Assembly: GCF_902167145.1 (NCBI RefSeq)
Contig: NC_050096.1
Span: 83,386,683-83,450,682 of the forward strand
DNA: 64,000 nt
Source of the DNA: Zea mays
Taxonomy: Eukaryota; Streptophyta; Magnoliopsida; Poales; Poaceae
Direction of reading: 5' to 3'
A model generated the notes under the pieces. That model worked only from the letters and a program-made list of their open reading frames with translations. It made no database searches and was not told the DNA's origin. Made by a program: the position numbers and the translations under genes. Every line of letters starts with the position of its first letter. Position 1 is the stretch's first letter. Positions 1,861-64,000 of the stretch are shown in pieces.

Positions 1861-1864
1861 CTTC

Positions 1865-4800: not shown

Positions 4801-5045
4801 TTTCTGAATATTCCCAATAAGAATCCTAATAATTCTAAGGAGTGCTCTAATATTTATCCTTATATAATACCTATTAACCTAAATAAAGGATAATTTATAT
4901 AAGAATCCCTTTATTGAATCTTTATTATTAAACACTTTTAGGAGATGTGACTTCAAAAGTTTTGAAAGAAGAGATAAAAAAATTCTAACTCAAAACCTTT
5001 GGAAAATTTTACATAATTCTCAAAATGAGATTTTGAGGTGTTACA
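1865..5045 (-). repeat. 5' LTR, 3181 bp, Del/Tekay-like
   Basis: Bounded by TGTAACACC (minus-strand start at 5045) and GTGTGACA (end at 1865). It contains no credible gene; the short frames inside it overlap each other in several frames. It resembles, in reverse orientation and with clear divergence, the 3.9 kb solo LTR at 42224-46121: both carry the 'cacctggtgatt' terminal segment and the motif around the phrase 'ggaatctcaagttcc'. Confidence 0.88.
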
Positions 5046-12290: not shown

Positions 12291-12315
12291 CTGCGCGATG
12301 CTCCGGGGGGTACCC

Positions 12316-13663: not shown

Positions 13664-13681
13664 CTCTACCTGGCGCGCCAA
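13664..13681 (-). promoter_or_regulatory. Primer binding site of the Huck-like element
   Basis: The minus strand reads TGGCGCGCCAGGTAGAGG one base after the LTR end at 13683. This PBS is characteristic of maize Huck-type elements. I do not assign the tRNA. Confidence 0.75.
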
Positions 13682-13682
13682 C

Positions 13683-33185: not shown

Positions 33186-33186
33186 A

Positions 33187-33199
33187 TTGGTATCAGAGC
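33187..33199 (+). promoter_or_regulatory. Primer binding site of copia element 1
   Basis: TTGGTATCAGAGC directly after the LTR, complementary to initiator Met-tRNA. Confidence 0.9.
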
Positions 33200-33230
33200 C
33201 CGGTACTTTATTAGAGCCTAACCGCTCGAA

Positions 33231-35848: not shown

Positions 35849-35861
35849 ATTTGTTTTGTAG

Positions 35862-37512
35862 GTTTATGCATCCGGGGGCTCAAGTTGGATCATCGATAGC
35901 GGGTGCACAAACCACATGACTGGGGAGAAAATAATGTTCTCCTCCTATGAGAAAAACCATGATCCCCAAAGAGCTATCACATTCGGGGATGGAAATCAAG
36001 GTTTGGTCAAAGGACTTGGTAAAATTGCTATATCTCCTGACCATTCTATTTCCAATGTTTTTCTTGTAGATTCTTTAGATTACAATTTGCTTTTTGTTTC
36101 TCAATTATGCAAAATGGGTTACAACTGTCTTTTTACGGATATAGGTGTTACTGTCTTTAGAAGAAGTGATGATTCAGTAGCATTTAAGGGAGTGTTAGAG
36201 GGTCAGCTATACTTAGTTGATTTTAATAGAGCCAAACTCAACACTTGCTTAATTGCTAAGACTAACATGGGTTGGCTCTGGCACCGCCGACTAGCCCATG
36301 TTGAGATGAAGAATCTTCATAAGCTTCTAAAGGGAGAGCACATTTTGGGACTAACCAATGTTCATTTTGAGAAATACAGGGTTTGTAGCGCATGTCAAGC
36401 AGGAAAGCAAGTTGGTGTTCATCATCCACACAAGAACATCATGACGACCGACATGCCGCTTGAGCTACTCCACATGGACCTATTCGGCCCGATAGCTTAC
36501 ATAAGCATCGGCGCGAGTAAGTATTGTCTTGTAATTGTGGATGATTATTCTCGCTTCACTTGGGTGTTCTTTTTGCAGGAAAAATCACAAACCCAAGAGA
36601 CCTTAAAGGGATTCTTGAAACAGGCTCAAAATGAGTTCGGATTGAGAATCAAAAAGATAAGAAGCGACAACGGGACAGAGTTCAAGAACTCACAAATAGA
36701 AGGCTTCCTTGAGGATAAGGGCATCAAGCATGAGTTCTCTTCTCCCTACACGCCACAACAAAATGGTGTAGTGGAGAGGAAGAATAGAACTCTACTTGAC
36801 ATGGCGAGGACCATGCTTGATGAGTACAAGACTTCGGACCGGTTTTGGGCGGAAGCAATCAACACCGCTTGCTACGCCATCAACCGCCTCTACCTTCACC
36901 GAATCCTCAAGAAGACATCTTATGAACTCCTAACCGGTAAAAAGCCCAATGTTTCATATTTTAGAGTCTTTGGTAGCAAATGCTTTATTCTTGTTAAAAG
37001 AGGTAGAAAATCTAAATTTGCTCCTAAGGTTGTAGAAGGTTTTTTACTTGGTTATGATTCAAACACAAGGGCATGTAGAGTCTTTTAACAAGTCCACTGG
37101 ACTAGTTGAAGTTTCTTGTAACATTGTGTTTGATGAGACTAACGGCTCTCAAGTAGAGCAAGTTGATCTTGATGAGCTAGATGATGAAGAGGCTCCATGC
37201 GTCGCGCTAAGGAACATGTCCATTGGGGATGTGTGTCCTAAGAAATTCGAAGAGCCTCCACATGCACAAGATCAACCATCATCTTCAAATCAAGCATCTC
37301 CACCAACTCAAAATGAGGACCAAGCTCAAGAGGATGAAAATGAAGATCAAGAAGATGAGCCACCTCAAGAGGAGGACAATGATCAAGGGGGAGATGCCAA
37401 TAATCAAGACAAGGAAGATGATGACGGTCCAAGACCGCCACACCCAAGAGTCCACCAAGCAATACAACGAGATCACCCCGTGAACACCATCCTCGGCGAT
37501 ATTCATAAGGGG
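35862..37512 (+). pseudogene. Copia protease/integrase region (element 1)
   Basis: The pol frame opens right after a TAG at 35859-35861. SSWIIDSGCTNHMTG is the protease active-site region (DSG), followed by the GAG-pre-integrase zinc motif and the integrase core. Catalytic residues are visible as LLHMDLFGP, IRSDNGTEFKN and QQNGVVERKN. A one-base insertion near 37085, relative to copia element 2, changes frame. The C-terminal acidic, Gln/Pro-rich linker continues to the deletion point near 37513. The core itself looks intact. Confidence 0.88.
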
Positions 37513-37515
37513 GTA

Positions 37516-37842
37516 TATTGTCGCAGGTCATTGTTGCGCGCAATTGCTTTGGATGAGGCAAACCCTTAGGGACTATGGTTACAAATTAACCAAAGTTCCT
37601 CTTCTATGTGATAATGAGAGTGCAATCTGCATGGCGGATAATCCCGTTGAGCACAGCCACACTAAGCATATAGCCATTCGGTATCACTTTTTGAGGGATC
37701 ACCAACAAAGGGGGATATCGAGATTGCATATGTTAGCACCAAAGAACAATTAGCCGATATCTTTACTAAGCCACTAGATGAGAAAACTTTTACCAAACTT
37801 AGGTATGAGCTAAATATTCTTGATTCTAGGAATTTTGTTTGA
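37516..37842 (+). pseudogene. Copia RNase H C-terminal remnant (element 1)
   Basis: After the deletion junction at 37513-37515 the sequence resumes with the RNase H end: LRDYGYKLTKVPLLCDNESA, then PVEHSHTKHIAIRYH and DIFTKPLDEKTF. A frameshift lies near 37715. The whole RT (LVAKGYSQ to YVDD) and the first part of RNase H are absent. Confidence 0.85.
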
Positions 37843-38665
37843 TATTTTGCACACATAGCTCATTTATATACCTTGATTATATATCTTTCATGTGCTATGA
37901 CTAATGTGGTTTTCAAGTGTATTTCATGCTAAGTCATAGATTGAAAGGGAAATGGAGTCTTCGGCGAAGACAAGGCTTCCACTCCACTCCGTCGAATTAT
38001 TCATCATTTGTCGGCGCTCCGCACCGCTCTCCAATTTGGTATAATCTTCACGCATACATTACTTACCAAAGGGGAGAAAGTATAAGGGCTTATATTTCAC
38101 TCACTAGTATTCGTTTTTGGTGATTCATGCCAAAGGGGGAGAAAGTATTAGCCCAAAGCAAAAGGACCGCACCACCACCAATTTCAAAAATGTAGTCTTT
38201 CAAATTTGTATTAAAAGAAGGTTTTTCAATTAGTATCTTATTTTTGATAGAAATTTCAAAATTGTTATAACTCCTTTCAAAATTAATATCTAAAACCCTA
38301 TTGAACACTAAGAGGAGAATTTTATTAAGGGGGAGTTTTGTTTAGTCAAAGGAAAAGCATTTGAAACAAGGGGAGAAAATTTCAAAACGTGAAAATGCTT
38401 CTTAAAATCTTATTAATTTACCTTTGACTATTTGCAAAAAGACTTTGAACAGAATTTCCAAAAGAATTTGCAAAAACAAAACAATTGGTGCAAGCGTGGT
38501 CCAAAATGTTAAATATGAAGAAAGCATCCATGCATATCCTATGAGAATATATATTGGTTTAATTCCAAGTAACCTTTGCACTTACCTTATGCAAACTAGT
38601 TCAATTCTGCACTTATATATTTGCTTTGGTTTGTGTTGGCATCAATCACCAAAAAGGGGGAGATT
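37843..38665 (+). other. 3' non-coding region and polypurine tract of copia element 1
   Basis: Repeated 'aagggggaga(g/t)' tracts occur near 38075, 38125 and 38325. The last, AAAAAGGGGGAGA at 38652-38664, directly precedes the LTR and is the likely plus-strand priming site. No gene. Confidence 0.75.
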
Positions 38666-46121: not shown

Positions 46122-46277
46122 GAGGATCCTACGGCGCAAGGACCTCAACCTCGCTCAAGTCACCTTATTTTCTCTATATGTTAATTATAATTTTCACACC
46201 CTTACATCGCTCACACTACAAGAAAAAATAATAGTAATAATGTCATGCCTTGTGTCCTTACAGGATGCAAGCATATG
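46122..46277 (+). pseudogene. CACTA gene: exon end, short intron and start of next exon
   Basis: RILRRKDLNLAQ ends an exon at 46158. A GT-AG intron of 105 bp follows (46159-46263). The next exon opens at 46264 and is cut at 46277 by the Tat-lineage insertion, continuing at 55705. Confidence 0.55.
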
Positions 46278-46864
46278 TGTTAGGGACTTGTTATCAAATG
46301 CTATGAATTAAGAACAAGGCAACATAAAGTGTTAAATGTTAACGTCCTTCGTCCACGAAACATTATTCCCTTGAGGATAATGGACCTTGGACGAAGGTTG
46401 ATGAAAGTATAAATTACGAAGCTTAAGTCTTCGTAATAAAATTTCAATAGATATTGTAAGATGCCATAAAATAAAAGGTATAAAAAGGGGTAAATAAATC
46501 ATAGACGAATTATATCATATTTACTTAATATATTGAATCATTGAATACAATAATACCTCTGCCTTGGCAAAGGTTGGATTCCAGAATATGCTATTGCAAT
46601 TATCAGGATGCGTGAACAGTAAAGGAATACTGTTCACTATTTATAGGCACAGGACGCAGCCTGTGAGGAATTACAAGTATGCCCCTTATAAAAGCTTACA
46701 ACATTGACTCAGACCTTCATGGACTAAAAGGTCATTCTATCTTTAAGTCGGTTTGTAATGCCGAAGCTTCACGAAGAGGAACCTTCGGCCATCTTATACA
46801 AACAGCTTCAGCTGAAAACCGCTTCTTCCTATAAGACCTTTGGCGACGAAGCATAGGCCCAACA
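46278..46864 (-). repeat. 3' LTR of the Tat-lineage element
   Basis: 587 bp with TG...CA ends, five differences from the other LTR. Minus-strand TATA-like CTATAAATAG at about 46637-46646. Confidence 0.95.
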
Positions 46865-46880
46865 GTAGCCCCTTTCGCGG
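46865..46880 (-). promoter_or_regulatory. Polypurine tract
   Basis: The minus strand reads GCGAAAGGGGCTAC directly before the 3' LTR start, in the position of the plus-strand primer. Confidence 0.7.
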
Positions 46881-47122
46881 TGCTAGATCGTTTTTCGTAA
46901 CGAGCTTGATCCGTGAAAAAAGTCTCTTAAGCTTCGGGGAGCCGAAGGTCCAAAAAACACCTTCCTTGAGCTCGTTGTCGAGAAACGATTCAATTTCCCA
47001 GCGCGTAGCGGTCCCACCTTGCAGAGTTACTGTTTGGTCTCTGCGGTCCACCGCACAGCGAGTGCAAGCGGGTGTCTGCCTGGTGTAAAAATCCTGGCGC
47101 TTCGCCTTCTTACCTGCAGTAC

Positions 47123-47130
47123 TATATAAA
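47123..47130 (+). promoter_or_regulatory. TATA box of the antisense gene
   Basis: TATATAAA on the plus strand, 180 bp upstream of the first ATG of the antisense gene and outside the LTR. Spacing suits a transcript starting near 47160. Inferred from sequence only. Confidence 0.55.
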
Positions 47131-47310
47131 CAGACGAGTAGATGTGAAGTTACCACAGCATTCATTGCTATTTGCATTGTTCTGCTGCCAAAATTTTTAA
47201 CCATCGCCGAAGCTTGTCCGTCGGAATCAAACGAAGCTCCAGTTTGAAGCCCGCTTCGTCAGAAAAACCTTCGGAAGAAGAAAGTATTAAATTTCCACAT
47301 TCATCATTAA

Positions 47311-50218
47311 ATGGCCAGAGTGCGTTCTACCGCCAGGGTTGAGCGTGAGGGGGCGAAACTGAAGCTTCGGAGACTGTTCCCATCTCCGAAGCCATGCAAC
47401 GATCCGGGCTGGTGACTTCGGAAAAGATCCCTAGTGATGATGCAGAACAAGCAGAACAAGCAGAACAAGCAATCGCTGAAGCAGAGGAAGAAGATATTGA
47501 GGAAACTGATCCCGAAGATGATTACCGCATTGCCATGCCAAGCAAGCCCAGCCACTTGGACTTCGGGAAATCTACTGTTTCAAAGGCTGATCTTTCCAAG
47601 ATGGTAAAGTCGGGCTTTTTTAATGAAAATCAGAAGAAGCTATTACGCTTCGGGGGGAAGAGACTACCCCAAAGCCGGAGAAGGATGAAATTGTCATTTT
47701 CAAAAGCTTTCTAAAGGCTGGATTGAGATTCCCCCTACATGGAATTATTGCAGAGGTACTGAAGAGGTTCGGTATCTATTTTCATCAGCTGACCCCTAAC
47801 GCTATCGTTAGGCTTAGCGTTTATATCTGGGCACTCCGAAGCCAAGCAGTGGAACCATTTGCGGACAGCTTTTGCCGAGTTCACGAGCTGCATTATCAGA
47901 CGAAGGCTAGAAAGGATGGATTGCACGACAATTTTGGTTGCTATAACTTCGCCTACCGGAAAACCACAAAGTTTCCTGTAATCAGCTATCGAAGCAAATG
48001 GGCAGCAGGCTGGAAGTCGGAGTGGTTCTATGTCAAGGTTGATGACGACAAGGAGAAGCTTGTGCAAAGTCCACTCGAACTAATCTTCGGAGAAACCCGA
48101 CCTCGCTGTAACATGACACCCGAAGGTCCAACACAACAAGCAATGAATGAATTCAGAATTATTGCAGAGCATATCAGTACAAGGGACCTGGTTCAGGAGT
48201 TTTTGGCTTTCAAAGTTTTTCCCAGTTTGAAAGAATGGGAAATGCCGAAGCTGAAGGGGGAGAAGAAAGAAGGTGAACTTGTACGTTTACCTTACTATTT
48301 CAAGTTTAAGAAATACTTTAAAGCGCCTTGCCAAGAGTGGCTAGACACAATTGAAGTAATGTGTAATGAAATACTTGGCAATTATTCCAAAAAATAAGAT
48401 CAATTAATGACTGCGGCCTTCGGCACCCGTCCGAAGCGAAGACTGAACCGAGTGTTGGACGCCTTGGGTTTTGAATACCCTGACTATGAAAATCTGAACA
48501 AAGGTGCCGGAGGCCAGAAAAGGAAAAGGGTAACCGAAGCCTCAAATGAAGATGAAAAAGAGACACCAAAGAAGAAAATTCCAAAGAAGAGGAAAGCGTC
48601 TTCTCCGAAACGGAAAATATCCGACGAAGAAAAATCCCCCGCATCACCCTCTGCCGCTGACGTTGAGGAAATTCTGAAGGTAATGACTGAATCCTTACCT
48701 GCGAAGCTAAGTCCACTGGGGCCCCAACTGACAAAGTTTTTTCAGAAGGACAAGGAGCCCAAAAAATCGAAGAAAATAATCAAAGCAAAGAGACAAAGAA
48801 TTATCACTGTGACAGAAGTAATTGACAAGACACCGCCAAGAGCTTCAGCTCAGAAAACACCAGCGGCTGCGGAAGGGACAGATATTGAAATTACACCTTC
48901 GGAGGTCGCAGCTGCCGAAGCTGCCTCAGCTGAAGATTTGAACCTGGAGAGCACAATCGAACACATAGACAAAATACTGCTAGACATGGCTGCAGAAGAA
49001 GCTACCACCGCCGCCGAAGAGGCCGCGACCGCAGCGTCGGAGAAAGGGAAAGAAATTGCTGATGAAGCTTCAGAAAACGAAGCCTTCATGTTCCAGAATT
49101 TAGTTGGGGAAAAACTATCAAAAGCTGAAATAGAAGAGCTTAGAGAGTATGCCAAATCCTGCGGATACAAACCTGGAGCACTCCTCTTCGGAGGCGTTGA
49201 TGATGAAAAATTAGATTGTATTCGAGATCAAACCGGAGCCAAAGTTATCGGTACTCTGTCAAAGAGTATCGGTTTTCCGAAGCTGGAGACAGACATCAGC
49301 CGCTACCGACGACAACATATCGTTGGTAGTTTATTTTATTCCAATTTCAAGGTGAACTACTTTTCCCTTAACTTTTATTGTTTCTAATAATGAAAACACG
49401 TCTGACGAAGGTTGATTTCGTGCAGAGTATGCTGTTGAGCAAAGCCTTAAAAATGCAGCAAGATTTTGAAGACAAGAAGCACGAAGTTATAATTGAAAAT
49501 TTGGAAAGCAGAATAAAGGAGCAATCAGATGCTATCGAGAAAAAGAACTTCGAGCTCCAGGCAACCGAAGGTTCATTGGCGGAAGCCGAAGCAAAAATAA
49601 CAGAACTGAACTTGAAGCTTCTTCGCCAATCTGAGCAGTTCGAACGAGAAAAGCAAGACCTTAATGCAAAACTTGAAGCCGAAGCTCAACAAAATTCAGA
49701 TTTGAGAAAACTATTGACGAGCCTTCAAGAAAAATGTTTGGAATTTAGCAACAAATGCATTCAACGATTAAGAAAGATTTTCCACTCAGTTGGAGCCAGC
49801 AGTGAAAAATTCACCCCCTCAGCTGAAGATCTACCGAAGACCTTCGAACATATTGAGAGTGAGATTGACGAGCTCGACGAAGTCATTGCTGGGCACGGTG
49901 ACTTCTGTGCCTGGGTAGCTTCTCGGGGCACTGCTGCAGCTTTCCTAAAAGCTGGCTGCGATCATGGAAAGATTGTCAATAGGCCAAATTTTACTTTATC
50001 ACCATCAATCCTAGATGACATTCCTGATCTCGCACGAAGTATCTCTAATAGATTTGTAAAAATGATATGGACAAAAGGTGGGCGAGAAAAGGCTGGAGAC
50101 GAAGCTCGGAGCCATCTTGAACCAGTAAGAAATCATACCTTGTGCTTACTTCTTCCTTCAAGTTCGATTTTGACTTACAACAACCTTATTCATGTAGGAT
50201 GACGAAGCTGATGATTAA
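47311..50218 (+). pseudogene. Antisense gene of the Tat-lineage element, three exons, 'putative gypsy type transposon'-like domain
   Basis: Transcribed opposite to pol. Proposed exons are 47311-49351, 49426-50124 and 50198-50218, separated by GT-AG introns of 74 and 73 bp that both fall between codons. The protein has an acidic N-terminus (EDIEETDPEDDY), a globular domain (FPLHGIIAEVLKRFGIYFHQ, SKWAAGWKSEWFYVKVDD) resembling the plant 'putative gypsy type transposon' family PF04195, a basic NLS-like KKKIPKKRKASSPKRK, Ala/Glu-rich linkers and a C-terminal coiled coil (49430-49760). It ends DDEADD. In this copy the frame is broken at two G runs (near 47350 and 47650) and by a TAA at 48395. Antisense frames of this kind are known in Tat-lineage elements; their function is not established. 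The domain assignment is from memory. Confidence 0.7.
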
Positions 50219-50664
50219 AAAATGACGCCGAGGCTGAAGCTCCTTGGAGATTAAATAGTAGACTGTAGACAGTTCTTAAGAAACTTTTGAGATAACTTTT
50301 GTAAATGTAACTAAAACTTGTCTTTAATGAATTCTATTCAAACCTTGTAATATATCCTTATCCTTCCAATGGTGTATGGGAAGTGCTTTGATGTGGACGA
50401 AATTTTCTTTTTTGAGCCGAAGGCGAAAAAACACCTTCCCTTCTTTTCGTACGCAGCGAAGCATAGAAAACAAGATTCCCCTCTTTCCGAAGCTCTTTCT
50501 TTCTCTTCCCCCTTTTTTTCTTTTTGCCGAAGCAACCACTTATGCCATGATGATGATTATCCTACATATGCCTGGATGAATGTTTATGAATGCAAATGCT
50601 ATGATGTAATGTGATGTGCAAATGAATGTCCAAACACATATCTGAAGCCATACTTATAGCACTC

Positions 50665-50960
50665 AGCTCTGCATTCCCTTAGGAACGACTTTGGAGCTTC
50701 TTCGCCTTTACTTTTGGCGGAATCAGCGTTGACTTTTCGCTGTAAGCTCTGCATTCCCTTAGGAACGTCTTTGGAGCTTCTTCGCCTTTACTTTTGGCGG
50801 AATCAGCGTTGACTTTTCGCTGTAAGCTCTGCATTCCCTTAGGAACGTCTTTGGAGCTTCTTCGCCTTTACTTTTGGCGGAATCAGCGTTGACTTTTCGC
50901 TGTAAGCTCTGCATTCCCTTAGGAACGTCTTTGGAGCTTCATCACTTTTTACTTTTCGGC
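50665..50960. repeat. 80-bp tandem repeat, about 3.6 copies
   Basis: 'gcattccctt' recurs at 50671, 50751, 50831 and 50911, an exact 80-bp period. The first three units are almost identical ('aggaacg(a/t)ctttggagct') and the fourth diverges after 50945. It lies between the converging ends of the antisense gene (50218) and pol (51116). Internal tandem repeats are typical of Tat-lineage elements. Confidence 0.95.
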
Positions 50961-51115
50961 ACTCGATGGTGCGTTCTCAGCTTTTACATTTACATTCCTT
51001 GGGGGATTTTGCTCTTATAGAACTAAAAAAGGAAATTACATATGATGGCCCCATTAAAAACCTTTCTCCCCCTTCAGAAAGGAAAAGGATGCCATGAATG
51101 AAAAATTACATCGAG

Positions 51116-54100
51116 CTATACATAATATCGCTGAAGCTCATCCGCATTCCAAGATCTAGGAATGTCGTTGCCGTCCATATCCTTCAATCTGTATGAACCG
51201 GGTCTTGACGAAGATGCTACTAAGAAAGGTCCATCCCATTTCAACTGCAACTTGCCCACTGTTTCTGGGTTGGCCACTCTCCGAAGCACCAAGTGTCCTG
51301 GCTCAATATTCTTTAGCCGAACCTTTCTATCTCGCCATTTTATTGTTTCGGCTTGATATTTATTGATGTTCTCCACGGCTTGCAGCCTGATTCCTTCTAA
51401 AGCATCTTTTTCCACAGAATAAGCAGCTTCGGAACCTGATTCTGCCGAAGCTACTACTCTTATTGATCCGGTTTTAGCTTCCTCCGGAGTTATTGCTTCG
51501 TCGCCGAATAATAACTTGAATGGAGTAAAGCCTGTAGACCTTGATGTTGTTGTATTGTGGCTCCACACCACTTTGGTTAACTGATCTGGCCACTTTCCCC
51601 TGGGTTGATTGAAGATTAACTTCATTATTCCTGTCATTATAATGCCATTGGCTCTTTCAACGAGTCCGTTTGACTCCGGATGCCTGACTGATGCAAAATG
51701 GATCTTCGTACCAATTTGATCACAGAAATCCCTGAAAGCTTCGGAGTCAAACTGTGTTCCATTATCCACAGTGATGGCCTTTGGTACCCCGAAACGACAA
51801 ACAATATTCTGCCAGAAAAACTTTTGAATGGTGGCCGAAGTTATTGTGGCTAAAGGCTTTGCCTCAGTCCATTTGGAAAAATATTCCACAGCCACTACAA
51901 CATATCTTAAGTTCCCTTGGGCCGGTGGTAATGGACCCAACAAGTCAAGGCCCCACCTTTGCAATGGCCAGATGGGTTGTATGAGCTGTGTTAAGGACGA
52001 AGGTTGTTTTTGATCTCTTGCACATTTCTGACAACCTTCGCACTTTTGAACTAATTCCGCCGCATCCGAAGCTGCCTTCGGCCAATAAAACCCCTGACGG
52101 AAAACTTTTCCAAGTAACGGCCTAGATCCAATGTGAGATCCACACAGGCCTGCATGTATTTCTTTCATCAACTCTATGCCTTCGGCTCTAGATAAACACT
52201 TGAGTAATGGAGCACAAACTCCATGCTTGTACAACTCCCCTTCTATCATGACATATGGACGAGCTCTTGCCTCTATCCTCCTGTTATAAGTTTCGTCATC
52301 TGAAAGGAATTTACCCTGAAGGTAAGAGATGATCTCAGTTCTCCAGTCTTCACTATAAACAGGAGATATATTGAGGACTGCTCTTTCAAGAAGTTCCACC
52401 GAAGGTGCTTTTATTGTTTCGAAGAACACATCCGAAGGTAAGGGCAGCCCCTGTGCTGCTGACTTAGCTAGCAAATCAGCATGCTCATTTTGTCCTCGAG
52501 GGATATTTTTAACAGAAAATCCTTCGAAGGAAGCTTCAACTCTTCGAACCATATCCAGATATTTTTCAAGCTTCGGATCCTTAGCCTTGCAACTCTTGTC
52601 AATATGACCCGAAACAACCTGGGAATCAGTTTTAAGCATAGCCCTTCTGATTCCCATTGCTTTTAGCTTCCGAAGACCCAAAAGCAGGGCTTCGTACTCG
52701 GCAATGTTATTTGTGCAACTAAAATCAAGTTTTGCCGCATAGCAAGTTTTAACTTTGGAAGGTGAAACCAACACAGCAGCCGCTCTCGCTCCGAAAGTTC
52801 CCCAAGACCCATCACAAAACACTGTCCATGCTTCGGCGTCTTTATTTGTTTCTTCCTCCTGAGCCCCTGGCGTCCAGTCAGCAATGAAGTCAGCTAACGC
52901 CTGGGACTGAATCGAAGATCTATGAACATATTCAATACAAAATTCGTTGAGCTCTGCAGCCCATTTTCCAATCCTTCCAGTAGCTTCTCGGTTCCTCATA
53001 ATATCCTTCAAAGGTTGTGAAGAAGGAACAATTATGTTGTAAGCTTGAAAATAATGCCGAAGCTTCCTGGAGGCCATCAAGACAGCATACAGTACCTTCT
53101 CCAACTCTGTATAATTTTTCTTTGATAAACTAAGAACCTCGGATACAAAATATATTGGGGCCTGCCGCTTAACTTGACCATCAAGCTTCTCCTGGACAAG
53201 CGCTGCACTTACCGCTGAATGCGAAGCTGCCACATATAATAACAAAGGAGCCCCTGGCGTCGGTGGAGTTAATGTTGTTAGATCTATCAAATACTGTTTC
53301 AGCTTTTCAAAGGCCTTCTGCTGAATTGGTCCCCATTGAAAGACTTCGGCTGACTTCAGCACTTCGAAGAATGGTAAGTTTCTCTCTGCAGATCTGGATA
53401 TGAATCTATTGAGAGATGCCAACCTTCCTGTCAATCTTTGAGCCCCCTTTTTTGTAGTTGGTGGCTCCATCCGAAGTATAGCTTCAATTTTACTTGGATT
53501 AGCTTCAATTCCCTTTGTTGAAACCAAGCACCCAAGAAATTTCCCCTTCTTTACTCCGAAGACGCATTTTTTTGGATTCAACTTTAAACCAGCTTGTCTG
53601 AAACTGGCGAAGGTCTCCTGCAAATCAGCAATATGATTCTCCTGTTTTGTGCTTTTTACAATGATGTCATCAACATAAGTTAGCACATTTCTGCCTATCT
53701 GAGACTGGAGAACCTTCGCAGTCATTCTGCTAAAACTTCCTCCAGCGTTTTTGAGCCCCTCAGGCATCCGAAGATAGCAATATGTGCCACTTGGAGTTAT
53801 GAAACTAGTCTTCGGCTCATCTTCCTTCTTCATCCAGATTTGGTGGTAGCCTGAATAACAGTCTAACAGACTCATGAGCTCTGAAGAAGCTGCTGCATCA
53901 ACTAAAGAGTCTATCCTTGGCAATGGGAATTCATCCTTCGGACAAGCCTTGTTAAGATCTGTAAAATCGATACACATTCGCCACTTGCCATTGGCCTTTT
54001 TTACCATAACAGTGTTAGCTAGCCATTCTAGGTACTTTACTTCTCTGATAACTCCTGCACTGAGGAGTCTTTTGACTTCATTACGAGCACCTTCGGCCTT

Positions 54101-55069
54101 ATCATCTGACATTTTCCAAAGCCTCTGCTTTCTGGGCCTGAAGGATGGATCAACATTGAGCGAGTGCTCAATAACATCCCTATTAACTCCACAGAGATCA
54201 TTGGCTGACCATGCAAAAACATCTTTGTTGTGAAACAAAAACCTTATCAAGGTTTTCTCTTGTTCTTCGGATAATTGAGAGCCCAGCAGCACCTTCTGCT
54301 CTGCTATGTCCTCACATAAGAGCATGGGCTTCGGCTGATCTGCTGAAGCTGCTTTCTCCCTTCTGAATTTGTATTGTTCACAAGCTTCAGCTCCATCTAT
54401 GTTATGGATTGCTTTTGAGTCGGTCCAGTTTCCTTCGGTCCTTCTGGCAGCTTCCTGACTTCCATGAATAGCGATGGGTCCTTGATCCGAAGGTATCTTC
54501 ATGCAGAGATAAGCAGGATGAAGAATCGCTTCGAAAGCATTGAGAGTGCCACGACCAATAATTGCATTGTAAGGGTATTCCATATCAACAATGTCAAACA
54601 CAACTTGCTCAGTTCTAGTGTTGTTGATGAACCCGAAGGTCACTGACATGGTGATCTTGCCGAGTGCTACAATCTGTCTTCCTCCGAAGCCACAGAGAGG
54701 ATGTGTAGCATCATGAATCTTATCTTCTGGCTCTTGCATTTGTCTGAAGGCCTTAGCAAATATGATATCAGCTGCACTACCTGTGTCAACCAAGACATTG
54801 TGGACCAGAAATCCTTTGATAACACAAGAGATAACCATGGCATCATTATGTGGGTAATCCTTGAGCTGAAGGTCCTCTTGGGAGAAGGTAATAGGAATGT
54901 GAGACCATCTTGACTTGATGAAGGGTCCTTGCACCCCAACATGCTGTACCCTTCTCTGTGCCTCTTTCTTCTGTTTCTTGTTGGCTGGCTCTGAGGACGA
55001 ACCACCTGTAATCGGGAGCACCAGCTTCGAGTCCGAAGCAGCTCCAGCTTGATCATTGAACGAAGCCAT
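51116..55069 (-). CDS. Tat-lineage pol polyprotein: protease, RT, RNase H, integrase; intact
   Basis: One uninterrupted frame of 1338 codons, reaching back into the LTR. The first ATG gives 1317 residues (MASFNDQAGAASD) and lies 44 nt inside the 5' LTR boundary. Counted from the frame start at 55132: protease DTGS at 116-119; RT with WRMCIDFTDLNKACPK, LLDCYSGYHQI and catalytic YVDD at 486-489; RNase H remnant (YFVSEVLSLSKKNYTELE); a second RNase H (TVFCDGSWGTFGARAA, NNIAEYEALLLG, KTDSQVVSGHI); and integrase with the HHCC finger (GFYWPKAA... KCEGCQKC) and DDE residues in GLDLLGPL, TVDNGTQF and NGLVERANG. All catalytic motifs are present. Gag is missing, so particles would have to come from another element. 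It ends RSWNADELQRYYV, normal for the clade. Confidence 0.93.
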   Translation of the reverse strand: MASFNDQAGAASDSKLVLPITGGSSSEPANKKQKKEAQRRVQHVGVQGPFIKSRWSHIPITFSQEDLQLKDYPHNDAMVISCVIKGFLVHNVLVDTGSAADIIFAKAFRQMQEPEDKIHDATHPLCGFGGRQIVALGKITMSVTFGFINNTRTEQVVFDIVDMEYPYNAIIGRGTLNAFEAILHPAYLCMKIPSDQGPIAIHGSQEAARRTEGNWTDSKAIHNIDGAEACEQYKFRREKAASADQPKPMLLCEDIAEQKVLLGSQLSEEQEKTLIRFLFHNKDVFAWSANDLCGVNRDVIEHSLNVDPSFRPRKQRLWKMSDDKAEGARNEVKRLLSAGVIREVKYLEWLANTVMVKKANGKWRMCIDFTDLNKACPKDEFPLPRIDSLVDAAASSELMSLLDCYSGYHQIWMKKEDEPKTSFITPSGTYCYLRMPEGLKNAGGSFSRMTAKVLQSQIGRNVLTYVDDIIVKSTKQENHIADLQETFASFRQAGLKLNPKKCVFGVKKGKFLGCLVSTKGIEANPSKIEAILRMEPPTTKKGAQRLTGRLASLNRFISRSAERNLPFFEVLKSAEVFQWGPIQQKAFEKLKQYLIDLTTLTPPTPGAPLLLYVAASHSAVSAALVQEKLDGQVKRQAPIYFVSEVLSLSKKNYTELEKVLYAVLMASRKLRHYFQAYNIIVPSSQPLKDIMRNREATGRIGKWAAELNEFCIEYVHRSSIQSQALADFIADWTPGAQEEETNKDAEAWTVFCDGSWGTFGARAAAVLVSPSKVKTCYAAKLDFSCTNNIAEYEALLLGLRKLKAMGIRRAMLKTDSQVVSGHIDKSCKAKDPKLEKYLDMVRRVEASFEGFSVKNIPRGQNEHADLLAKSAAQGLPLPSDVFFETIKAPSVELLERAVLNISPVYSEDWRTEIISYLQGKFLSDDETYNRRIEARARPYVMIEGELYKHGVCAPLLKCLSRAEGIELMKEIHAGLCGSHIGSRPLLGKVFRQGFYWPKAASDAAELVQKCEGCQKCARDQKQPSSLTQLIQPIWPLQRWGLDLLGPLPPAQGNLRYVVVAVEYFSKWTEAKPLATITSATIQKFFWQNIVCRFGVPKAITVDNGTQFDSEAFRDFCDQIGTKIHFASVRHPESNGLVERANGIIMTGIMKLIFNQPRGKWPDQLTKVVWSHNTTTSRSTGFTPFKLLFGDEAITPEEAKTGSIRVVASAESGSEAAYSVEKDALEGIRLQAVENINKYQAETIKWRDRKVRLKNIEPGHLVLRRVANPETVGKLQLKWDGPFLVASSSRPGSYRLKDMDGNDIPRSWNADELQRYYV

Positions 55070-55095
55070 CAGCTCAAAAAGTGGAAGTGAGTTCA

Positions 55096-55112
55096 CCGGA
55101 GGTGGGCGCCAA
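55096..55112 (-). promoter_or_regulatory. Primer binding site of the Tat-lineage element
   Basis: The minus strand reads TTGGCGCCCACCTCCGG immediately after the 5' LTR end at 55113, a PBS type seen in maize Tat-lineage elements. tRNA not assigned. Confidence 0.75.
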
Positions 55113-55699
55113 TGTTGGGGACTTGTTCTCAAATGCTATGAATTAAGAACAAGGCAACATAAAGTGTTAAATGTTAACGACCTTCGTCCACGAAACATTA
55201 TTCCCTTGAGGATAATGGACCTTGGACGAAGGTTGATGAAAGTATAAATTACGAAGCTTAAGTCTTCGTAATAAAATTTCAATAGATATTGTAAGATGCC
55301 ATAAAATAAAAGGTATAAAAAGGGGTAAATAAATCATAGACGAATTATATCATATTTACTTAATATATTGAATCATTGAATACAATAATACCTCTGCCTT
55401 GGCAAAGGTTGGATTCCAGAATATGCTATTGCAATTATCAGGATGCGTGAACAGTAAAGGAATACTGTTCACTATTTATAGGCACAGGACGCAGCCTGTG
55501 AGGAATTACAAGTATGCCCCTTATAAAAGCTTACAACATTGACTCAGACCTTCATGGACTAAAAGGTCATTCTATCTTTAAGTCGGTTTGTAATGCCGAA
55601 GCTTAACGAAGAGGAACCTTCGGCCATCTTATACAAACAGCTTCAGCTGAAAACCGCTTCTTCCTATAAGACCTTCGGCGACGAAGCATAGGCCCAACA
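55113..55699 (-). repeat. 5' LTR of the Tat-lineage element
   Basis: 587 bp, TG...CA ends, ATATG duplication at 55700-55704. Minus-strand TATA TATAAATAGT at 55471-55480, the presumed promoter for pol. Confidence 0.95.
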
Positions 55700-55704
55700 A
55701 TATG

Positions 55705-56720: not shown

Positions 56721-57583
56721 TGAAAGGGAATGGCCTCAACATTTCCTATAATCGATTTTGGTGTTTGAAGACCATCACAAACCTTATGGACTAGCTAGTT
56801 TGCTTAGTTTATCATTTGTCAGGTGGATAAGTTCATCTACAACTATTCTAAGTCGACTGTCTAGAATACCGTAGATTATTCCGAACAGGAGAAGAATTTT
56901 GGAAAAACACCTATGCGCGGACCGTTCGGGCCCTTGCGGCAGACCGTCCACGACACCAGGGTGTGCCTCGGACAGGAACACTGCAAAAAACACAAGTTAA
57001 CACTATGGGTCGTCCGATGGAGAAGCGAGCACCGTCCGAGACCAAGCGCGGACGTCCGGTCGTTGTAAAACCAGAAAAACCCGAAGATGACTTGGCTTTA
57101 TTAATCGTGCTTTCCTCATCTCTCTCTAAACTCTCTAAGTGTTTTTTTGTAAATCTTGCAAGAGACACCTAATTGTGTGGTGATCCTTGTGGGGTCTTAG
57201 TGACCCGTGAGATTGAGAAAAAGCACTCGATCGGTCTGAGTGATCGATTGAGAGAGGGAAAGGGTTGAAATAGACCCAGCCTTTGTGGCCTCCTCAACGG
57301 GGACTAGGTTCTTTGGAACCGAACCTCGGTAAATAAATCACCATGTTCACTTGTTGATCTTCACTTGATTTGTTCCCCATCTGTCCTCTCTCTAAAAGTT
57401 CCCTTGCTCATATAGATTTGAGTTTGCTCCCAAACGTTATCCGCATTGATTGGACAACTCATAGCAAGGAGAATCATCTTCTGCACTCCGAATTATTTCT
57501 AACACTAACCCTGGGCATAGTGCGTGTTCAAAGTTTATAATTTTCAGGTTTCGCCTATTCACCCCCTCTCTAGGTGACTTTCA
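56721..57583 (+). repeat. 5' LTR of copia element 2 (863 bp)
   Basis: Starts TGAAAGGGAATGGCCTC and ends GTGACTTTCA next to the PBS. Apart from the ends and the 'gagagggaaagggttgaaa' region it is unlike the LTRs of copia element 1, so it belongs to a different family of the same clade. Confidence 0.85.
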
Positions 57584-57584
57584 A

Positions 57585-57597
57585 TTGGTATTGGAGC
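57585..57597 (+). promoter_or_regulatory. Primer binding site of copia element 2, mutated
   Basis: TTGGTATTGGAGC follows the LTR and differs from the initiator Met-tRNA complement at two positions (TATTGG for TATCAG). Confidence 0.75.
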
Positions 57598-57629
57598 CAG
57601 TGCTTCATTAAGAGTCTAACAAACTCGAA

Positions 57630-60562
57630 GTGATGTCTGGAGATCACGCCAAGAGGGAGATCGTCACAGGCGACAAGGCCATGGGCTCGGGAAGGACTCT
57701 ATCAAGGGAGTCTGGCGACAAGTACAATGAGGAATCCTCTTCCTCCATCAAATCACATAGGAAGGGTGACAAGAAGAAAAAGAAAATGAAGAAGGTGGCC
57801 TACTACGAGACTGACTCTTCATCACCTTCCACATCCGATGTCGAGTCTACAACTTCGAAGCGCCACGAGCGTAAGAAGTATAGTAAGATGCCTCTTCGCT
57901 ATCCTCGCATTCCTAGACGCGCTCCTCTCCTTTCGGTACCCCTAGGCAAACCACCATATTTTGATGGTGAAGATTATTGCATGTGGAGTGATAAAATGAG
58001 GCACCATCTAACCTCACTGCACGAAAGCATATGGGATATTATTGAGTTTGGAGCTCAGGCACCACAGGTAGGCGACGAGGACTATGACTCAGACGAGGCC
58101 GCCCAAATTAGGCTTTTTAACTCCCAAGCAACTTCTATACTCCTCGCCTCCTTGTGTCGAGAGGAGTATAATGAGGTGCAAGGGTTGAAAAATGCCAAAG
58201 AAATTTGGGACGTCCTCAAAACGACGCAAGAAGGGGACGAGGTGACCAAGTTCACCAACGCGAGACGATCGAGGGAGAGCTCGATCGATTCGTCCTTAAC
58301 AAAGGAGAGGAGCCACAAGCAATGTACAACCGGCTCAAGACAATGGTCAACCAAGTGCGCAATCCCGGGAGCACCAAGTGGGATGACCATGAGATGGTCA
58401 AGGTTGTTCTTAGATCTCTTGTTTTTCATAATCCCACTCAAATGCAACTAATCTGTGGAGACCCTAGATATAAACAGATGTCTCCCGAGGAGGTAATTGG
58501 CAAGTTTGTGAGCTTTGAACTTATGATCAAAGACTCCAAACATATTGTCAACTTGGAGCAAGGCGCCACCTCCACACCCTAAGTGCAACCCGTTGCATTC
58601 AAAGCAACAGAAGAGAACAAAGAAGAGTCTACATCAAGTAGACTCCCAATTGATGCCTCCAAGCTCGACAATGAGGATATGGCTCTAATCATAAAGAGCT
58701 TCCGGCAAATGCTCAAGCAAAGGAAGGGGAAGGACTATAAACCCCGCTCCAAAAGGGTTTGCTATAGGTGCGGTAAGTCCGGTCACTTCATTGCAAAATG
58801 TCCATATACAAGTGACAGGTAGGGCTGGGCAAAAAATCCATAACCCGAAACCCAAACCTAGAATACCCGAACCCGAACCTGAAATACCCGAAACCCGAAT
58901 TTCCTTCGGGAATTTCGGGTAGCAACTTGCAAAACCCGAATTTATTTCGAGATTTGGGTATCATAATCGGGTACCCGAAATACCCAAATTACTCGAACTT
59001 TCATGTGTCATGTACTCATGCCATTCTTAATTATTAATTTGTACATCTATAATTATGTGTAAGTGTGCATGACTTGTGATTATAGATTGCTTGTGTTTTT
59101 TATGTCCACGTATATCATTATTCAAACTGTATGTTTATAATAATTTAATAGGGTGCATGTGTTTTTATGAAGCTGACACAACAGTTCGGGTAGTTCGGGA
59201 ATACGCGAACCCGAAATTTCGGGTACCCGAATTTTCGGGTATTGTAAAACTCGTTGTAATTTCGGGTATCGATTCTCAAAACCCGAAATTTTAAATACCC
59301 GAATGCCCACCCCTAGTGACAGGGACGACGACAAGAAAGGGAAGAAGAAGACGGAGAATAGAATTATTACAAGAAGAAGGGTGGCGAGGCACATATGGGA
59401 CAGGAATGGGATTCCGATGAGAGCTCCACCGACTCCTCCGACGAGGACGCCGCCAACATCGCCATCAACAAAGGCCTTATCTTCCCCAACGTCGGCCACA
59501 AATGCCTAATGGCTAAGGACGGCAAGAAGAAGAAGGTATATTCTAGAGATACCCCTAAATATACTACATCCGATGATGAGGGTAGCTCTAGTGATGATAA
59601 TGATGACTTAACTTCTCTTTTTGCTAACCTTACTAAAGATCAAAAGAAGAAGATAAATGAATTAATAGAATCTGTTAACGAGAAGGATGATCTCTTGGAA
59701 TGCCAAGAGGACTTGCTCGTTAAGGAAAATAAGAAATTTTTTAAATTGAAAAATGTTTATGCTCTAGAGGTAGAAAAATGTGAAAACTTATCTAAAGAGC
59801 TTAATGTTTGAAATGATTCAATTTCTTGTCTTAGAATTGAGAATGAAAATTTAAAAGCCTAAGATAGAAGAATTGAATGCTTGCAAAACTCCTACATCTA
59901 TTGTTGAGCATGTCACTATTTGTACTAGATGTAGAGATATTAATTTTGATGCTATGAATGATCACATTGCTATGATTAAAGAACAAAATGGTCACATAGC
60001 TAAGTTAAATGCTAAAATTGCCGAGCATGAGCTAGAAAATGAAAATTTTAAATTTGCTCGTAGCATGCTTTATAATGGGAGACGCCCTGGAATTAAGGAT
60101 GACATTGGCTTCCAACAAGGGAGCCAAAGCAACATCAAACTTAATGCCCCCAAGAACAAACAATCTAATTTTGTTAAGGGTAATGCTCCAATGGTTCAGG
60201 ATAGAGAGGTTTACATTTTATATCTTGAGAACTATCATGAACACAAAATCAGGAAAATTCATGCTAGAAAACCTCATAATGTTTCTCATCATGCTTTTAT
60301 GTATAGTAATGAGGCATCTAGCTCTAGGCATTCAACTCATATCAAAATGCCTAAAAAAATTGCAAATGCATCAAATGAGCATAACATTTCATTTAGGACT
60401 TTTGATGCATCTTATGTACTCACTAACAAATCAGGCAAAGTAGTTGCCAAATATGTTGGGGGCAAACACAAAAGTACAAAGACTTGTGTTTGGGTACCCA
60501 AGGTGCTTGTTTCTAATGTCAAAGGACCCAAGACCGTTTGGGTACCTAAGAACAAAGCATAA
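57630..60562 (+). pseudogene. Copia gag (element 2), frameshifted and interrupted by a hAT MITE
   Basis: Begins MMSGDHAKREIV and follows the same order as gag of element 1, including FDGEDYCMWSDKMRHHL. A one-base loss near 58258 changes frame, with stops at 58580 and 59809. The zinc knuckle CYRCGKSGHFIAKC is at about 58759. The hAT element at 58820-59315 sits just after it. The coiled-coil part continues to the conserved terminal TAA after VWVPKNKA (60560-60562). Confidence 0.85.
58820..59315. repeat. Non-autonomous hAT-like element, 496 bp, with perfect 8-bp TSD
   Basis: TAGGGCTGGGCAA at the left and ATGCCCACCCCTA at the right are inverted termini. GTGACAGG is exactly duplicated at 58812-58819 and 59316-59323. 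The interior has many 'acccgaa(a/t)' / 'ttcgggt' motifs forming internal inverted repeats. Confidence 0.92.
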
Positions 60563-60575
60563 ATTTGTTTTGTAG

Positions 60576-62288
60576 GTTTATGCATCCGGTAGATCAAGTT
60601 GGATAATCAATAGCGGGTGCACAAACCACATGACAGGGGAGAAAAGGATGTTCTCCTCATACGAGAAAAATGATGATCCCCATAGAACGATTACATTCGG
60701 GGATGGAAATCAAGGTTTGGTCAAAGGTTTGGGTAAAATTGCTATATCTACTGACCATTCCATTTCTAATGTTTTTCTTATAGATTCATTAGACTATAAT
60801 TTGCTTTCAGTTTCTCAATTATCCAAAATGGGTTACAACTGTCTCTTTACTGATGTAGGTGTCACTGTCTTTAGAAGAAGTGATGATTCAGTAGCATTTA
60901 AGGGAGTGTTAGATGGCCAGCTATATTTAGTTGATTTCAATAATAACAATGCTGAACTAGACACTTGCTTAATTGTTAAGACTAGTATGGGTTGGCTCTA
61001 GCGTCGCTGACTTGCTCATGTTGGGATGAAGAATCTTCACAAACTTCTAAAGGGAGAACACATTTTAGGACTAACAAATGTTCATTTTGGGAAAGACAGG
61101 ATTTGTAGCGCATGTTAAGCAGGGAAGCAAGTTGGAGTTCATCATCCACACAAGAACATCATGACGACCGATAGGCCGCTTGAGCTACTCCACATGGATC
61201 TATTCGGTCCGATCGCTTATATAAGCATCGGCGGGAGTAAGTACTGTCTTGTTATTGTGGATGATTATTCTCGCCTCACTTGAGTATTCTTCTTGCAGGA
61301 AAAATCTCAAACCCAAGAGACCTTAAAGAGATTCTTAAGATGGGCTCAAAATGAATTTGAATTGAGAATCAAGAAGATTAGAAGCGACAACGGAATAGAG
61401 TTCAAGAATTCACAAATTGAAGGATTTCTTGAGGATGAGGGCATCAAGCATGAGTTCTCTTCTCCCTACACACCTCAACAAAATGGTGTAGTGGAGAGGG
61501 AAAATAGAACTCTACTAGATATGGCAAGAACCATGCTTGATGAATACAAGACACTGGATTGGTTTTGGGCGGAGGCAATTAACACTGCTTGCTACTCCAT
61601 CAACCGACTCTATCTTCACCGAATCCTCAAGAAAACATCATATGAACTCCTCACTAGTAAAAAGTCCAATGTTTCTTATTTTAGAGTTTTTGGGAGCAAA
61701 TGCTTCATTCTTATTAAAAGAGGTAGAAATTCTAAATTTGCTCCTAAAGCAGTAGAAGGCTTTTTACTTGGTTATGACTCAAACACAAGGGCATATAGAG
61801 TCCTCAACAAGTCCACTAGATTAGTTGAAGTTTCTTGTGACATTGTGTTTGATGAGACTAATGGCTCCCAGGTGTAGCAAGTTGATCTTGATGAATTAGA
61901 TGATAAAGAGGCTCCATGCGTAGCGCTAAGGAACATGTCCATTAGGGATGTGTGTCCAAAGGAATCCGAAGAGCCACCACAAGCACAAGATCAACCATCA
62001 TCTTCCATACAAGCATCTCCACCAACTCAAGATGAGGATAAGGCTCAAGAAGAAGAGGATGAAGATCAAGATGATGAGCTGCCTCAAGAGGTGGACATTG
62101 ATCAAGGGGGAGATGAAGATGAGCAAGACAAGGAAGATGATCAAGAAATTCAAGATTAAAGACCGCCACACCCAAGAGTCCACCAAGAAATTCAAAGAGA
62201 TAACCCTGTCAACTCCATTCTTGGTGACATTCACAAGGGGGTAACCACTAGATCTCGAGTTGCTCATTTTTGTGAACATTACTCTTTT
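60576..62288 (+). pseudogene. Copia protease/integrase (element 2), multiple stops
   Basis: Opens after a TAG at 60573-60575, as in element 1. The protease motif reads INSGCTNHMTG, with Asn where the catalytic Asp should be. Stops occur near 60999, 61008, 61116, 61281 and 61876. The integrase core retains LLHMDLFGP, IRSDNGIEFKN and QQNGVVEREN. An acidic linker follows. Dead by several independent lesions. Confidence 0.85.
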
Positions 62289-63816: not shown

Positions 63817-64000
63817 AACATTGCACACATAGCTAATTTATATAACTTTGATCATGTCTCTTTCATTTGGTACAAATGCATATTTCTTATTCTTCTTGCA
63901 CCAAGGTTAAGACTAATATGCTTTCAAGTATACTTCTATGATTAGTCTTAGATTGAAAGGGAAATGGAGTATTCGGCAAAGACAAGGCTTCCACTCCAAC
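63817..64000 (+). other. 3' non-coding region of copia element 2, cut by window edge
   Basis: Matches 37843-38000 of copia element 1, including 'gattgaaagggaaatggag' and 'agacaaggcttccactcc'. No LTR boundary is reached. Confidence 0.8.

Follow-up and report, generated by a model that had tools for sequence, protein, structure and literature searches.

A candidate intron-bearing antisense TRP28 gene in a gag-less Retand-type element of maize

The stretch of Zea mays DNA analyzed in this study (NC_050096.1, positions 83,386,683–83,450,682; 64,000 nucleotides, hereafter the window) contains a gypsy-type element on its minus strand, and the plus strand of this element carries long coding stretches between positions 47123 and 50218. 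A preliminary description proposed that these stretches form an independently transcribed gene with its own TATA box and two very short introns. The locus thus raises the question of whether such a gene exists and whether the window copy can still make its product. The reading that we prefer, with a probability of about 0.8, is that a Retand-type element without gag carries an accessory gene in antisense, which at family level would be a Pol II gene with three exons and two introns and which is broken in the window copy.

The host element

Judged by its domains and anatomy, the element is a gypsy type without gag and spans positions 46273–55704 on the minus strand. Its features are as follows.

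46273..46277, no strand: target-site duplication ATATG by the 3' LTR, identical to 55700..55704
46278..46864, minus strand: 3' LTR of 587 bp, with 5 differences in 587 positions from the 5' LTR
50652..50956, no strand: tandem repeat of 80-bp units, located between pol and the antisense gene
51116..55069, minus strand: pol open reading frame with RT, RNase H and integrase but without gag
55101..55112, minus strand: TTGGCGCCCACC, which we take to be the primer binding site (PBS), directly adjoining the 5' LTR
55113..55699, minus strand: 5' LTR of 587 bp, from comparison of the LTR pair
55700..55704, no strand: target-site duplication ATATG by the 5' LTR, identical to 46273..46277

The Pfam matches in 51116–55132 of the minus strand were the RT, RNase H and integrase of gypsy pol, and a protease match was below the cut-off. 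The pol gene is one open frame of 1338 codons, the first ATG of which is 43 nt past the 5' LTR. The LTR, PBS and pol start were collinear in all five close copies compared, which are 5 of the 29 close copies other than that of the window, and in both fetched copies of a sister subfamily. In the copies compared, pol without gag is a family-level trait, as in Cinful.

The internal region of the element is 8,248 bp long. The region between pol and the 3' LTR (46865–51115) is 4,251 bp and holds the antisense TRP28 ORF, whose PF04195 match is above the cut-off; in Retand elements this region ranges from 2,933 to 6,566 bp (PMC11963269). The LTR and internal lengths of 587 and 8,248 bp compare with 585 and 8,245 bp in the published cluster Zea mays 2 and with 587 and 8,365 bp in Zea mays 1 (Vicient, 2025; PMC11963269). 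Different from the window copy, Zea mays 2 lacks a tandem array, whereas Zea mays 1 has one but lacks the AP domain (PMC11963269). Given this anatomy and the near fit to published maize clusters, the element probably belongs to the Retand lineage and is of the maize Cinful type, where we infer the name Cinful and place the lineage by anatomy and the cluster measurements of PMC11963269. On the same grounds, Retand of the Cinful type fits better than the label Ogre/Tat given in the preliminary description.

The antisense gene in the window copy and its close copies

The predicted features of the antisense gene are listed below.

47121..47210, plus strand: conserved block of putative core promoter and 5' leader, from invariant-base counts in 7 sequences
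47123..47130, plus strand: TATA box TATATAAA, present in all 30 close copies and at the aligned place in 6 of 6 sister-subfamily copies
47311..49351, plus strand: exon 1, with acidic start, TRP28 domain, basic run and conserved C-terminal part; broken in the window copy
47723..47890, plus strand: match to PF04195, Transposase_28 (TRP28), E 1.4e-06, 28.9 bits against a cut-off of 26.2
48518..48616, plus strand: lysine/arginine-rich NLS-like run, from the translation
49352..49425, plus strand: intron 1, 74 nt, GT-AG, from splice dinucleotides in copies
49426..50124, plus strand: exon 2, 233 codons, a coiled coil followed by a helical C-terminal part; open in the window copy
50125..50197, plus strand: intron 2, 73 nt, GT-AG, from splice dinucleotides in copies
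50198..50218, plus strand: exon 3, acidic tail DDEADD and stop, from in-phase joining and the sister copies

As described before, TATATAAA is present at 47123 and an ATG at 47311, and no other ATG is found from 47150 to 47311. Removal of the two GT-AG stretches joins the frames in phase up to a TAA at 50216–50218. The T content of the window introns was 0.38 vs. 0.22–0.23 in the window exons. The suggested HMM search returned the PF04195 match listed above. Moreover, neither a gag nor a zinc-knuckle domain was found among the Pfam matches of four antisense pieces up to an E of 1, which agrees with the view that the product is not a gag. The other product features that had been described were also recovered, the basic run in the translation and a long coiled-coil helix in the predicted structure. 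The open frame that had been read from the ATG at 47311, however, already ends with a TGA at 47413–47415.

The coding sequence of exon 1 of the window copy is spread over three frames, with changes near 47350 and 47656, and is interrupted by a stop at 48395–48397; removal of either intron does not explain these breaks. All three are private to the window copy, as all 29 other aligned copies differ from it at both frame changes and the stop is found in 1 of the 30 close copies. The window copy is a disabled version of the antisense gene and is unable to make the protein.

In the window copy, the pol frame stays open while antisense exon 1 is disabled.

Among the close copies, all four splice dinucleotides are retained in 29 of 30. 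Intron 1 has GT-AG in all 30 close copies and in all six sister copies. Intron 2 has AG in all 30 close copies and GT in 29, donor 2 being lost in L033. Both long exons are open together with all four splice dinucleotides in 18 of the 30 close copies, and an exon is broken in 11. Apart from the two breaks of the window copy, the exon-1 indels that separate the other 29 copies from it are 3, 9, or 18 nt long, except for two single-base ones that occur in one copy each.

The polymorphisms common to at least three close copies comprised 13 nonsynonymous and 38 synonymous changes in the predicted frame (site-corrected ratio 0.094), and singleton changes had a site-corrected ratio of 0.29; not counted were changes present in precisely two copies, codons readable in fewer than 10 rows, and the sequence around the two frame changes and the stop codon of the window copy. 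In the other five frames, the shared changes gave 1.3–2.7 in four and 0.18 in the fifth, whose third positions coincide with those of the predicted frame. Diversity among the 30 close copies is biased low because they were chosen as most like the window gene. Per 100 bp, the antisense gene was less diverse than the end of pol that was fetched; since likeness to this gene was the criterion for choosing the copies, nothing is concluded from this contrast.

In 7 sequences, 15–19 of every 20 bases were invariant in 47121–47210 vs. 8–15 in 46991–47120 and 47211–47300. This suggests a conserved TATA box and leader, a candidate for an own promoter of the antisense gene. At 46961–46990, a second well-kept stretch, 17–18 of every 20 bases are invariant in the 7 sequences. 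This level is close to that of the TATA block, and conservation in this region therefore does not by itself indicate a promoter.

Introns and constraint among sister copies and wider homologs

The sister copies are 6 of 61 rows and were taken from the seven without a stop inside the exon-1 match, a sample biased towards open exon 1. Their exon 2 is ~76% identical to that of the window in protein, and the splice sites and TATA box are kept. Intron 2 is 70, 70, 71, 72, and 74 nt long in the five of six sister copies in which it was measured vs. 73 nt in the window, and the spliced last exon of these five starts with DDEAEAE. The sixth likewise reads GT...CAG ahead of the last exon. The length of intron 1 implied by unspliced reading was 72 nt in one homolog, 73 nt in two and 76 nt in 25, which are mostly near-identical and whose spliced frame is the same as with the 74-nt window intron. 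Since intron lengths vary (72–76 nt for intron 1 and 70–74 nt for intron 2), the unspliced frame shifts and the spliced frame stays constant.

For exon 2, 2202 homologs were found, and none of the 120 listed carried a Pfam label. The alignments A1, A2, and A3 comprised 12 of 120, 66 of 143, and 51 of 120 listed homologs, respectively. At donor 1, the next residue is V (GTN) in 114 and E in one of the 115 homologs that hold the exon-end motif, a count that leaves out the 28 of 143 without it. At donor 2, V follows in 113 of the 120 listed homologs, and the others have I (5), A (1), or no motif (1). In nearly all homologs, homology stops at both donors. At family level, both predicted introns are strongly supported by these comparisons.

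The dN/dS of exon 2 between the window and four sister copies was 0.07–0.09, far from 1; this range is without L044 and without L040, which was left out as an indel puts its ungapped comparison out of register. The dN/dS of the exon-1 tail vs. the sister copies was 0.03–0.07. Exon 2 is broken in all six fetched sister copies, in four by one stop each (residues 12, 63, 32, and 39) and in two by shifts, and the positions of the stops differ between copies. Because an open exon 1 was the criterion for choosing the sister copies and dN/dS skips stop codons, the low values reflect past constraint and not constraint on these copies. As judged from the sequences compared, the antisense frame is a real protein-coding gene family under purifying selection. 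The proposal of a spliced independent gene is thus partly supported: at family level, a coding frame, a conserved TATA region, two frame-keeping introns and TRP28 were found, from which transcription and splicing are predicted, whereas the window copy is a broken gene, whose exon 1 has two frame changes and one stop.

Exon 2 was predicted to fold mainly into a long helix (residues 2–121), with block pLDDT values of 81–97 up to residue 110. The prediction for the TRP28 region (67 rows) reached a pLDDT of only 38.5 and is of no use, so DNA binding is without structural support. Among solved structures, the exon-1 profile had no match and the exon-2 profile had four weak ones (best E 0.035), and no relatives were found in viral or prokaryote contigs. 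For other maize TRP28 matches (L001–L008), the fit to the exon-1 profile is limited to a short part surrounding TRP28. Neither profile fits the regions downstream of other maize TRP28 matches (L045–L050), which showed no exon-2 homology, although the position of these regions was set by offset and the correct stretch may have been missed.

Alternative readings and known systems

Under the preferred reading, a TATA promoter lying ~260 bp inward of the 3' LTR boundary would read towards pol and, at family level, would drive an ordinary small Pol II gene, transcribed and spliced as three exons with two introns of ~70–76 nt. As the replication cycle implies, retrotransposition would leave the introns in place: the RNA that is copied has the sense orientation, where the introns appear as reverse complements and so are not spliced out. 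The product would combine TRP28, the basic run, a long coiled coil and an acidic tail. Most likely it would self-associate, be nuclear and act on the DNA or RNA of its own element, in the manner of retroviral antisense factors.

Translation of exons 1 and 2 as separate unspliced ORFs, with the GT-AG stretches as mere spacers, is improbable. Unspliced reading of the window copy yields two ORFs, 326 and 274 codons long, the published survey tallies single ORFs (PMC11963269) and homolog P0120 is open straight across the intron-1 stretch; the open stretch of P0120, however, is a 72-nt GTN...Q piece that is compatible with a GT-CAG intron. Protein homology stops at the donors in nearly all homologs, exon 2 lacks a constant start (the commonest among 120 gene calls were an internal Met in 35 and an intronic GTG in 34), and the last exon stays in phase solely via splicing. 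An RNA role has been raised for antisense ORFs of LTR elements (PMC7264820), and the transcript could be a source of double-stranded RNA or silencing with the protein incidental. Such a reading is very improbable, as the dN/dS of exon 2 and the excess of synonymous over nonsynonymous shared changes (38 vs. 13) point to constraint on the protein; an RNA role may exist in addition to the protein. That the element captured a host gene fragment, now decaying, would account for the three breaks of the window copy and the broken exon 2 of the fetched sister copies. This is hardly credible, given that the window breaks are private, both long exons are open in 18 of the 30 close copies, the stops vary between sister copies, coding constraint is visible between subfamilies and no similarity of TRP28 outside TEs is reported (PMC11963269).

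Beyond the preferred reading of a spliced antisense gene, a clade of Retand elements might carry a complete intron-bearing antisense Pol II gene, with introns that cannot be lost in its own replication and a coiled-coil TRP28 protein that prefers the element encoding it. We regard this extension as tentative and rather doubtful. Such preferential action would explain the retention of the gene in elements that have lost gag or pol domains. By our count of Table 1 in PMC11963269, 15 of 63 clusters miss at least one of GAG, AP, RH, and INT, and all 15 have TRP28, one as a short ORF; the text of that paper itself gives ten defective clusters. If the extension were true, the maize antisense gene would add a third part to the split Cinful/Zeon system and be a plant counterpart of the spliced antisense regulators of retroviruses.

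In a survey of recently active Retand clusters, 97% had antisense TRP28 ORFs, which are a Retand hallmark (PMC11963269). In that study ORFs are tallied singly and the main text nowhere uses the word intron, whereas the single gene predicted here combines two introns with a coiled-coil second exon. If this exon structure holds, annotations based on single ORFs stop at the first intron and leave out the 233-codon coiled-coil exon and the acidic tail, and functional tests built on them would be done with a truncated protein. A review has called for examining antisense and spliced transcripts (PMC7264820).

The same review describes gene23 of Grande in maize (Gomez-Orte, 2013) as an antisense gene with its own promoter upstream and a nuclear product (PMC7264820). 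The promoter model, which the preliminary description did not know to have been reported before, was thus already published for a related gene, although Grande is a different maize family and none of L045–L050 was identified as Grande. For the intron model, no account of the exon structure was found in the literature searched, outside the scope of which were the original work on gene23 (Gomez-Orte, 2013), the 2011 extra-ORF survey (Steinbauerova) and Sanz-Alferez (2003). This kind of antisense TRP28 gene and its own promoter were already known, and the intron structure is the addition made here, with exact predicted junctions within a family of thousands of full-length copies. In the passages covered of PMC8547701 and PMC2774510, Cinful-zeon (RLG00001) is a large family, young in maize, in which Cinful encodes the polyprotein and Zeon GAG; 9,844 full-length copies are reported (PMC2774510), and the antisense gene is unmentioned in these passages.

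Ogre elements are plant gypsy elements with a spliced intron (PMC6317226), whereas the introns predicted here are antisense. An Ogre-type intron in the sense polyprotein region was considered for this element and rejected, as pol is one open frame and the introns are on the opposite strand. Similar to the gene predicted here, hbz of HTLV-1 and its kin are antisense, and hbz transcripts are spliced and encode a nuclear product that lowers sense transcription (PMC10186651). Different from the TATA box outside the LTR found here, the hbz promoter is TATA-less and inside the 3' LTR (PMC10186651).

Anatomy and lineage of the element

The antisense gene lies on the plus strand of a gypsy-type LTR element that reads on the minus strand. 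The features of this element are as follows.

Features of the studied element and of its predicted antisense gene (window positions)
46273–55704 (−): gypsy-type LTR element, with the 5-bp target duplication ATATG on both sides
46278–46864 and 55113–55699 (−): LTRs, 587 bp each, with 5 differences between them
55101–55112 (−): putative primer binding site, TTGGCGCCCACC, directly after the 5' LTR
47123–47130 (+): putative TATA box, TATATAAA
47311–49351 (+): exon 1
49352–49425 (+): intron 1
49426–50124 (+): exon 2
50125–50197 (+): intron 2
50198–50218 (+): exon 3, ending with TAA at 50216–50218
50652–50956: tandem repeat between the antisense gene and pol, with an 80-bp unit in about 3.8 copies

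The pol frame spans 1338 codons, with matches to reverse transcriptase, RNase H and integrase families. Its first ATG is only 43 nt past the 5' LTR, and there is no space for gag. The 5' end was collinear in all five close copies fetched there (95–99% identical) and in both copies fetched from the sister subfamily (about 82% identical). Thus, gag is missing from the family as a whole, and its absence here is no deletion peculiar to the window copy. In size and domains, the element is near the cluster 'Zea mays 2' listed in Table 1 of PMC11963269, in which GAG is absent and AP and TRP28 (PF04195, Transposase_28) are present; the LTR and internal lengths are 587 and 8,248 here and 585 and 8,245 there. 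Different from the window copy, however, that table lists no tandem array for 'Zea mays 2'. Cinful and Zeon are described as parts of one family, with the polyprotein from Cinful and GAG from Zeon (PMC8547701). Given this split and the anatomy near 'Zea mays 2', the studied element is probably of the Cinful type, a label that follows from anatomy rather than from sequence similarity to any named reference element.

Other features were also found in the window. A probable LTR element at 1–5045, whose repeats (1–555 and 4490–5045) are 99.3% identical, is truncated by the window start; its part 1893–3311 matches, inverted and at 82%, 46116–44689, which lies just outside the studied element on its 3' side. 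A second retroelement (8319–14192, minus strand) has a reverse transcriptase/RNase H frame at 8319–10250 and two upstream frames, at 10377–11342 and 12552–14192, for which no Pfam family matched at E 0.001. A SPARK domain frame (21255–22097, minus strand; PF19160, E 3.1e-22) is probably a host gene or fragment among repeats. Finally, related stretches with copia-type domains, about 75–86% identical piecewise, flank the studied element at 33129–37986 and 57524–63998 (plus strand).

Predicted promoter, introns and reading frame

Comparison of copies showed that the signals of the antisense gene are conserved, that its frame exists only with the introns removed and that the predicted protein is under selection. 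The aligned copies were the best 30 of 40 scored, from 9,738 first-look candidates. The preliminary description of an antisense, TATA-driven, two-intron gene was partly confirmed. TATATAAA, the ATG at 47311 and both GT-AG stretches were found where it had placed them, and the frames join once 49352–49425 and 50125–50197 are removed. However, the frame from this ATG does not extend to intron 1 but stops already at 47413–47415 in the window copy, where exon 1 is split over three frames and contains an additional stop at 48395–48397. The two frame changes are private to this copy, as all 29 other aligned copies differ there, and the stop at 48395–48397 is present in it only (1 of 30). Of the 30 copies, a total that counts the window copy, 18 have both long exons open and all four splice dinucleotides intact, and one has both long exons open with one splice site lost; in the other 11, one or both of these exons are broken.

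The 20-bp bin with the TATA box had one variant across the 30 close copies, the lowest of the 22 bins over 46870–47310 (the runner-up had two), and TATATAAA was at the aligned place in all six sister copies. The longest conserved block within the compared part (46961–47310) was 47121–47210, and 46961–46990 was about equally conserved. Given that the window contains TATATAAA four times on its plus and five times on its minus strand, the motif by itself proves nothing; the evidence for a TATA box is its conservation.

Intron 1 is bounded by GT and AG in all 30 close and all six sister copies. For intron 2, GT was found in 29 and AG in 30 of the 30 close copies. In the five sister copies measured, intron 2 was 70, 70, 71, 72 and 74 nt long, and the spliced last exon started with DDEAEAE in all five; in the sixth, GT...CAG precedes the last exon. 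The homologues, which are gene calls on contigs, implied when read unspliced an intron 1 of 72 nt (one), 73 nt (two) or 76 nt (25, mostly near-identical), and it is 74 nt in the window. As lengths vary while the spliced frame holds, the unspliced phase shifts and the spliced phase is constant. Moreover, the residue after the last conserved exon-1 residue was V (codon GTN) in 114 of the 115 motif-holding homologues, drawn from 143 proteins, and E in one. The residue after exon 2 was V in 113, I in five and A in one of the 120 homologues listed, the motif being absent in one. The T content was 0.38 in both window-copy introns versus 0.22–0.23 in its exons. Thus, four lines of evidence, namely conservation, phase, homology edges and composition, agree in supporting both predicted introns.

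Selection on the predicted protein

A codon comparison of the 30 copies, read in the predicted frame, counted changes as shared when three or more copies carried them. The shared changes were 13 nonsynonymous and 38 synonymous (per-site ratio 0.094) and included no stops; the singletons were 158 nonsynonymous and 152 synonymous (ratio 0.29), with ten stops. In exon 2 alone, the shared changes were 0 nonsynonymous and 11 synonymous. Other frames gave shared-change ratios of 1.3, 1.6, 1.9 and 2.7, and one reverse frame, which shares its third codon positions with the gene, gave 0.18. The ratio for the fetched end of pol was 0.037. Between the window copy and four sister copies, the dN/dS of exon 2 was 0.07–0.09 and not near 1, the value that, in the preliminary description, would have counted against the gene. 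That of the exon-1 tail was 0.03–0.07 against five sister copies. Exon 2 was broken in all six sister copies fetched (L039–L044, whose exon 1 had been listed as stop-free), in two by a shift and in four by one stop each, whose residue differed from copy to copy. Thus, the exon-2 dN/dS reflects constraint preceding the decay of these copies. Open sister-type exon-2 frames, with tails VTKSYL..., were found among the 120 homologues listed.

Exon 1 matched TRP28, the family the preliminary description had proposed to search, at E 1.4e-06, and also has an acidic start and a basic run. In agreement with the view that the product is not a gag, no gag family was among its Pfam matches. Structure modelling gave no usable model for the TRP28 region. 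In the exon-2 model, a helix takes up about the first 120 residues (block pLDDT 81–97 as far as residue 110), and the helical part after it is poorly predicted; exon 3 is an acidic tail. Overall, the reading of an independently transcribed, spliced gene is partly supported.

Possible function and known systems

Pol II would transcribe the gene from the internal TATA promoter toward pol, the two short introns would be spliced out, the RNA would be exported and translated, and the protein would return to the nucleus. As the sense RNA is the template of reverse transcription, the antisense introns would be inherited intact and no special mechanism is needed. The product may be a nuclear factor that associates with itself and modulates sense transcription or the handling of genomic RNA, for which we consider the odds about even (probability near 0.5) against other roles, such as action on the pre-integration complex. 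In PMC11963269, DNA binding by TRP28 is put forward as a prediction. Since the element already needs another one to supply gag, the protein-level constraint suggests that the antisense product acts partly for the copy encoding it. Our recount of Table 1 of PMC11963269 points likewise: 15 of the 63 published clusters miss core domains (ten in the paper's text), and all 15 retain TRP28, one in a short ORF.

Antisense TRP28 ORFs are reported for 97% of the Retand clusters that were recently active (PMC11963269), and a word search of that paper's main text did not find 'intron'. In the literature listings, openings of abstracts and passages searched, no description of introns in such antisense genes was met, and one may be in print. 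Grande gene23 is described as having an upstream promoter that drives its transcription and a nuclear product, and the same source calls for examining antisense and spliced transcripts (PMC7264820). Genes of this class, and the notion that they have a promoter of their own, are already known. HTLV-1 hbz is described as having spliced antisense transcripts, a TATA-less promoter and a nuclear product that reduces viral expression (PMC10186651). Different from Ogre, whose described intron is within the sense polyprotein region (PMC6317226), the studied element has its predicted introns on the antisense strand. As far as searched, the two-intron structure and the extra coiled-coil exon are new details on a known gene type.
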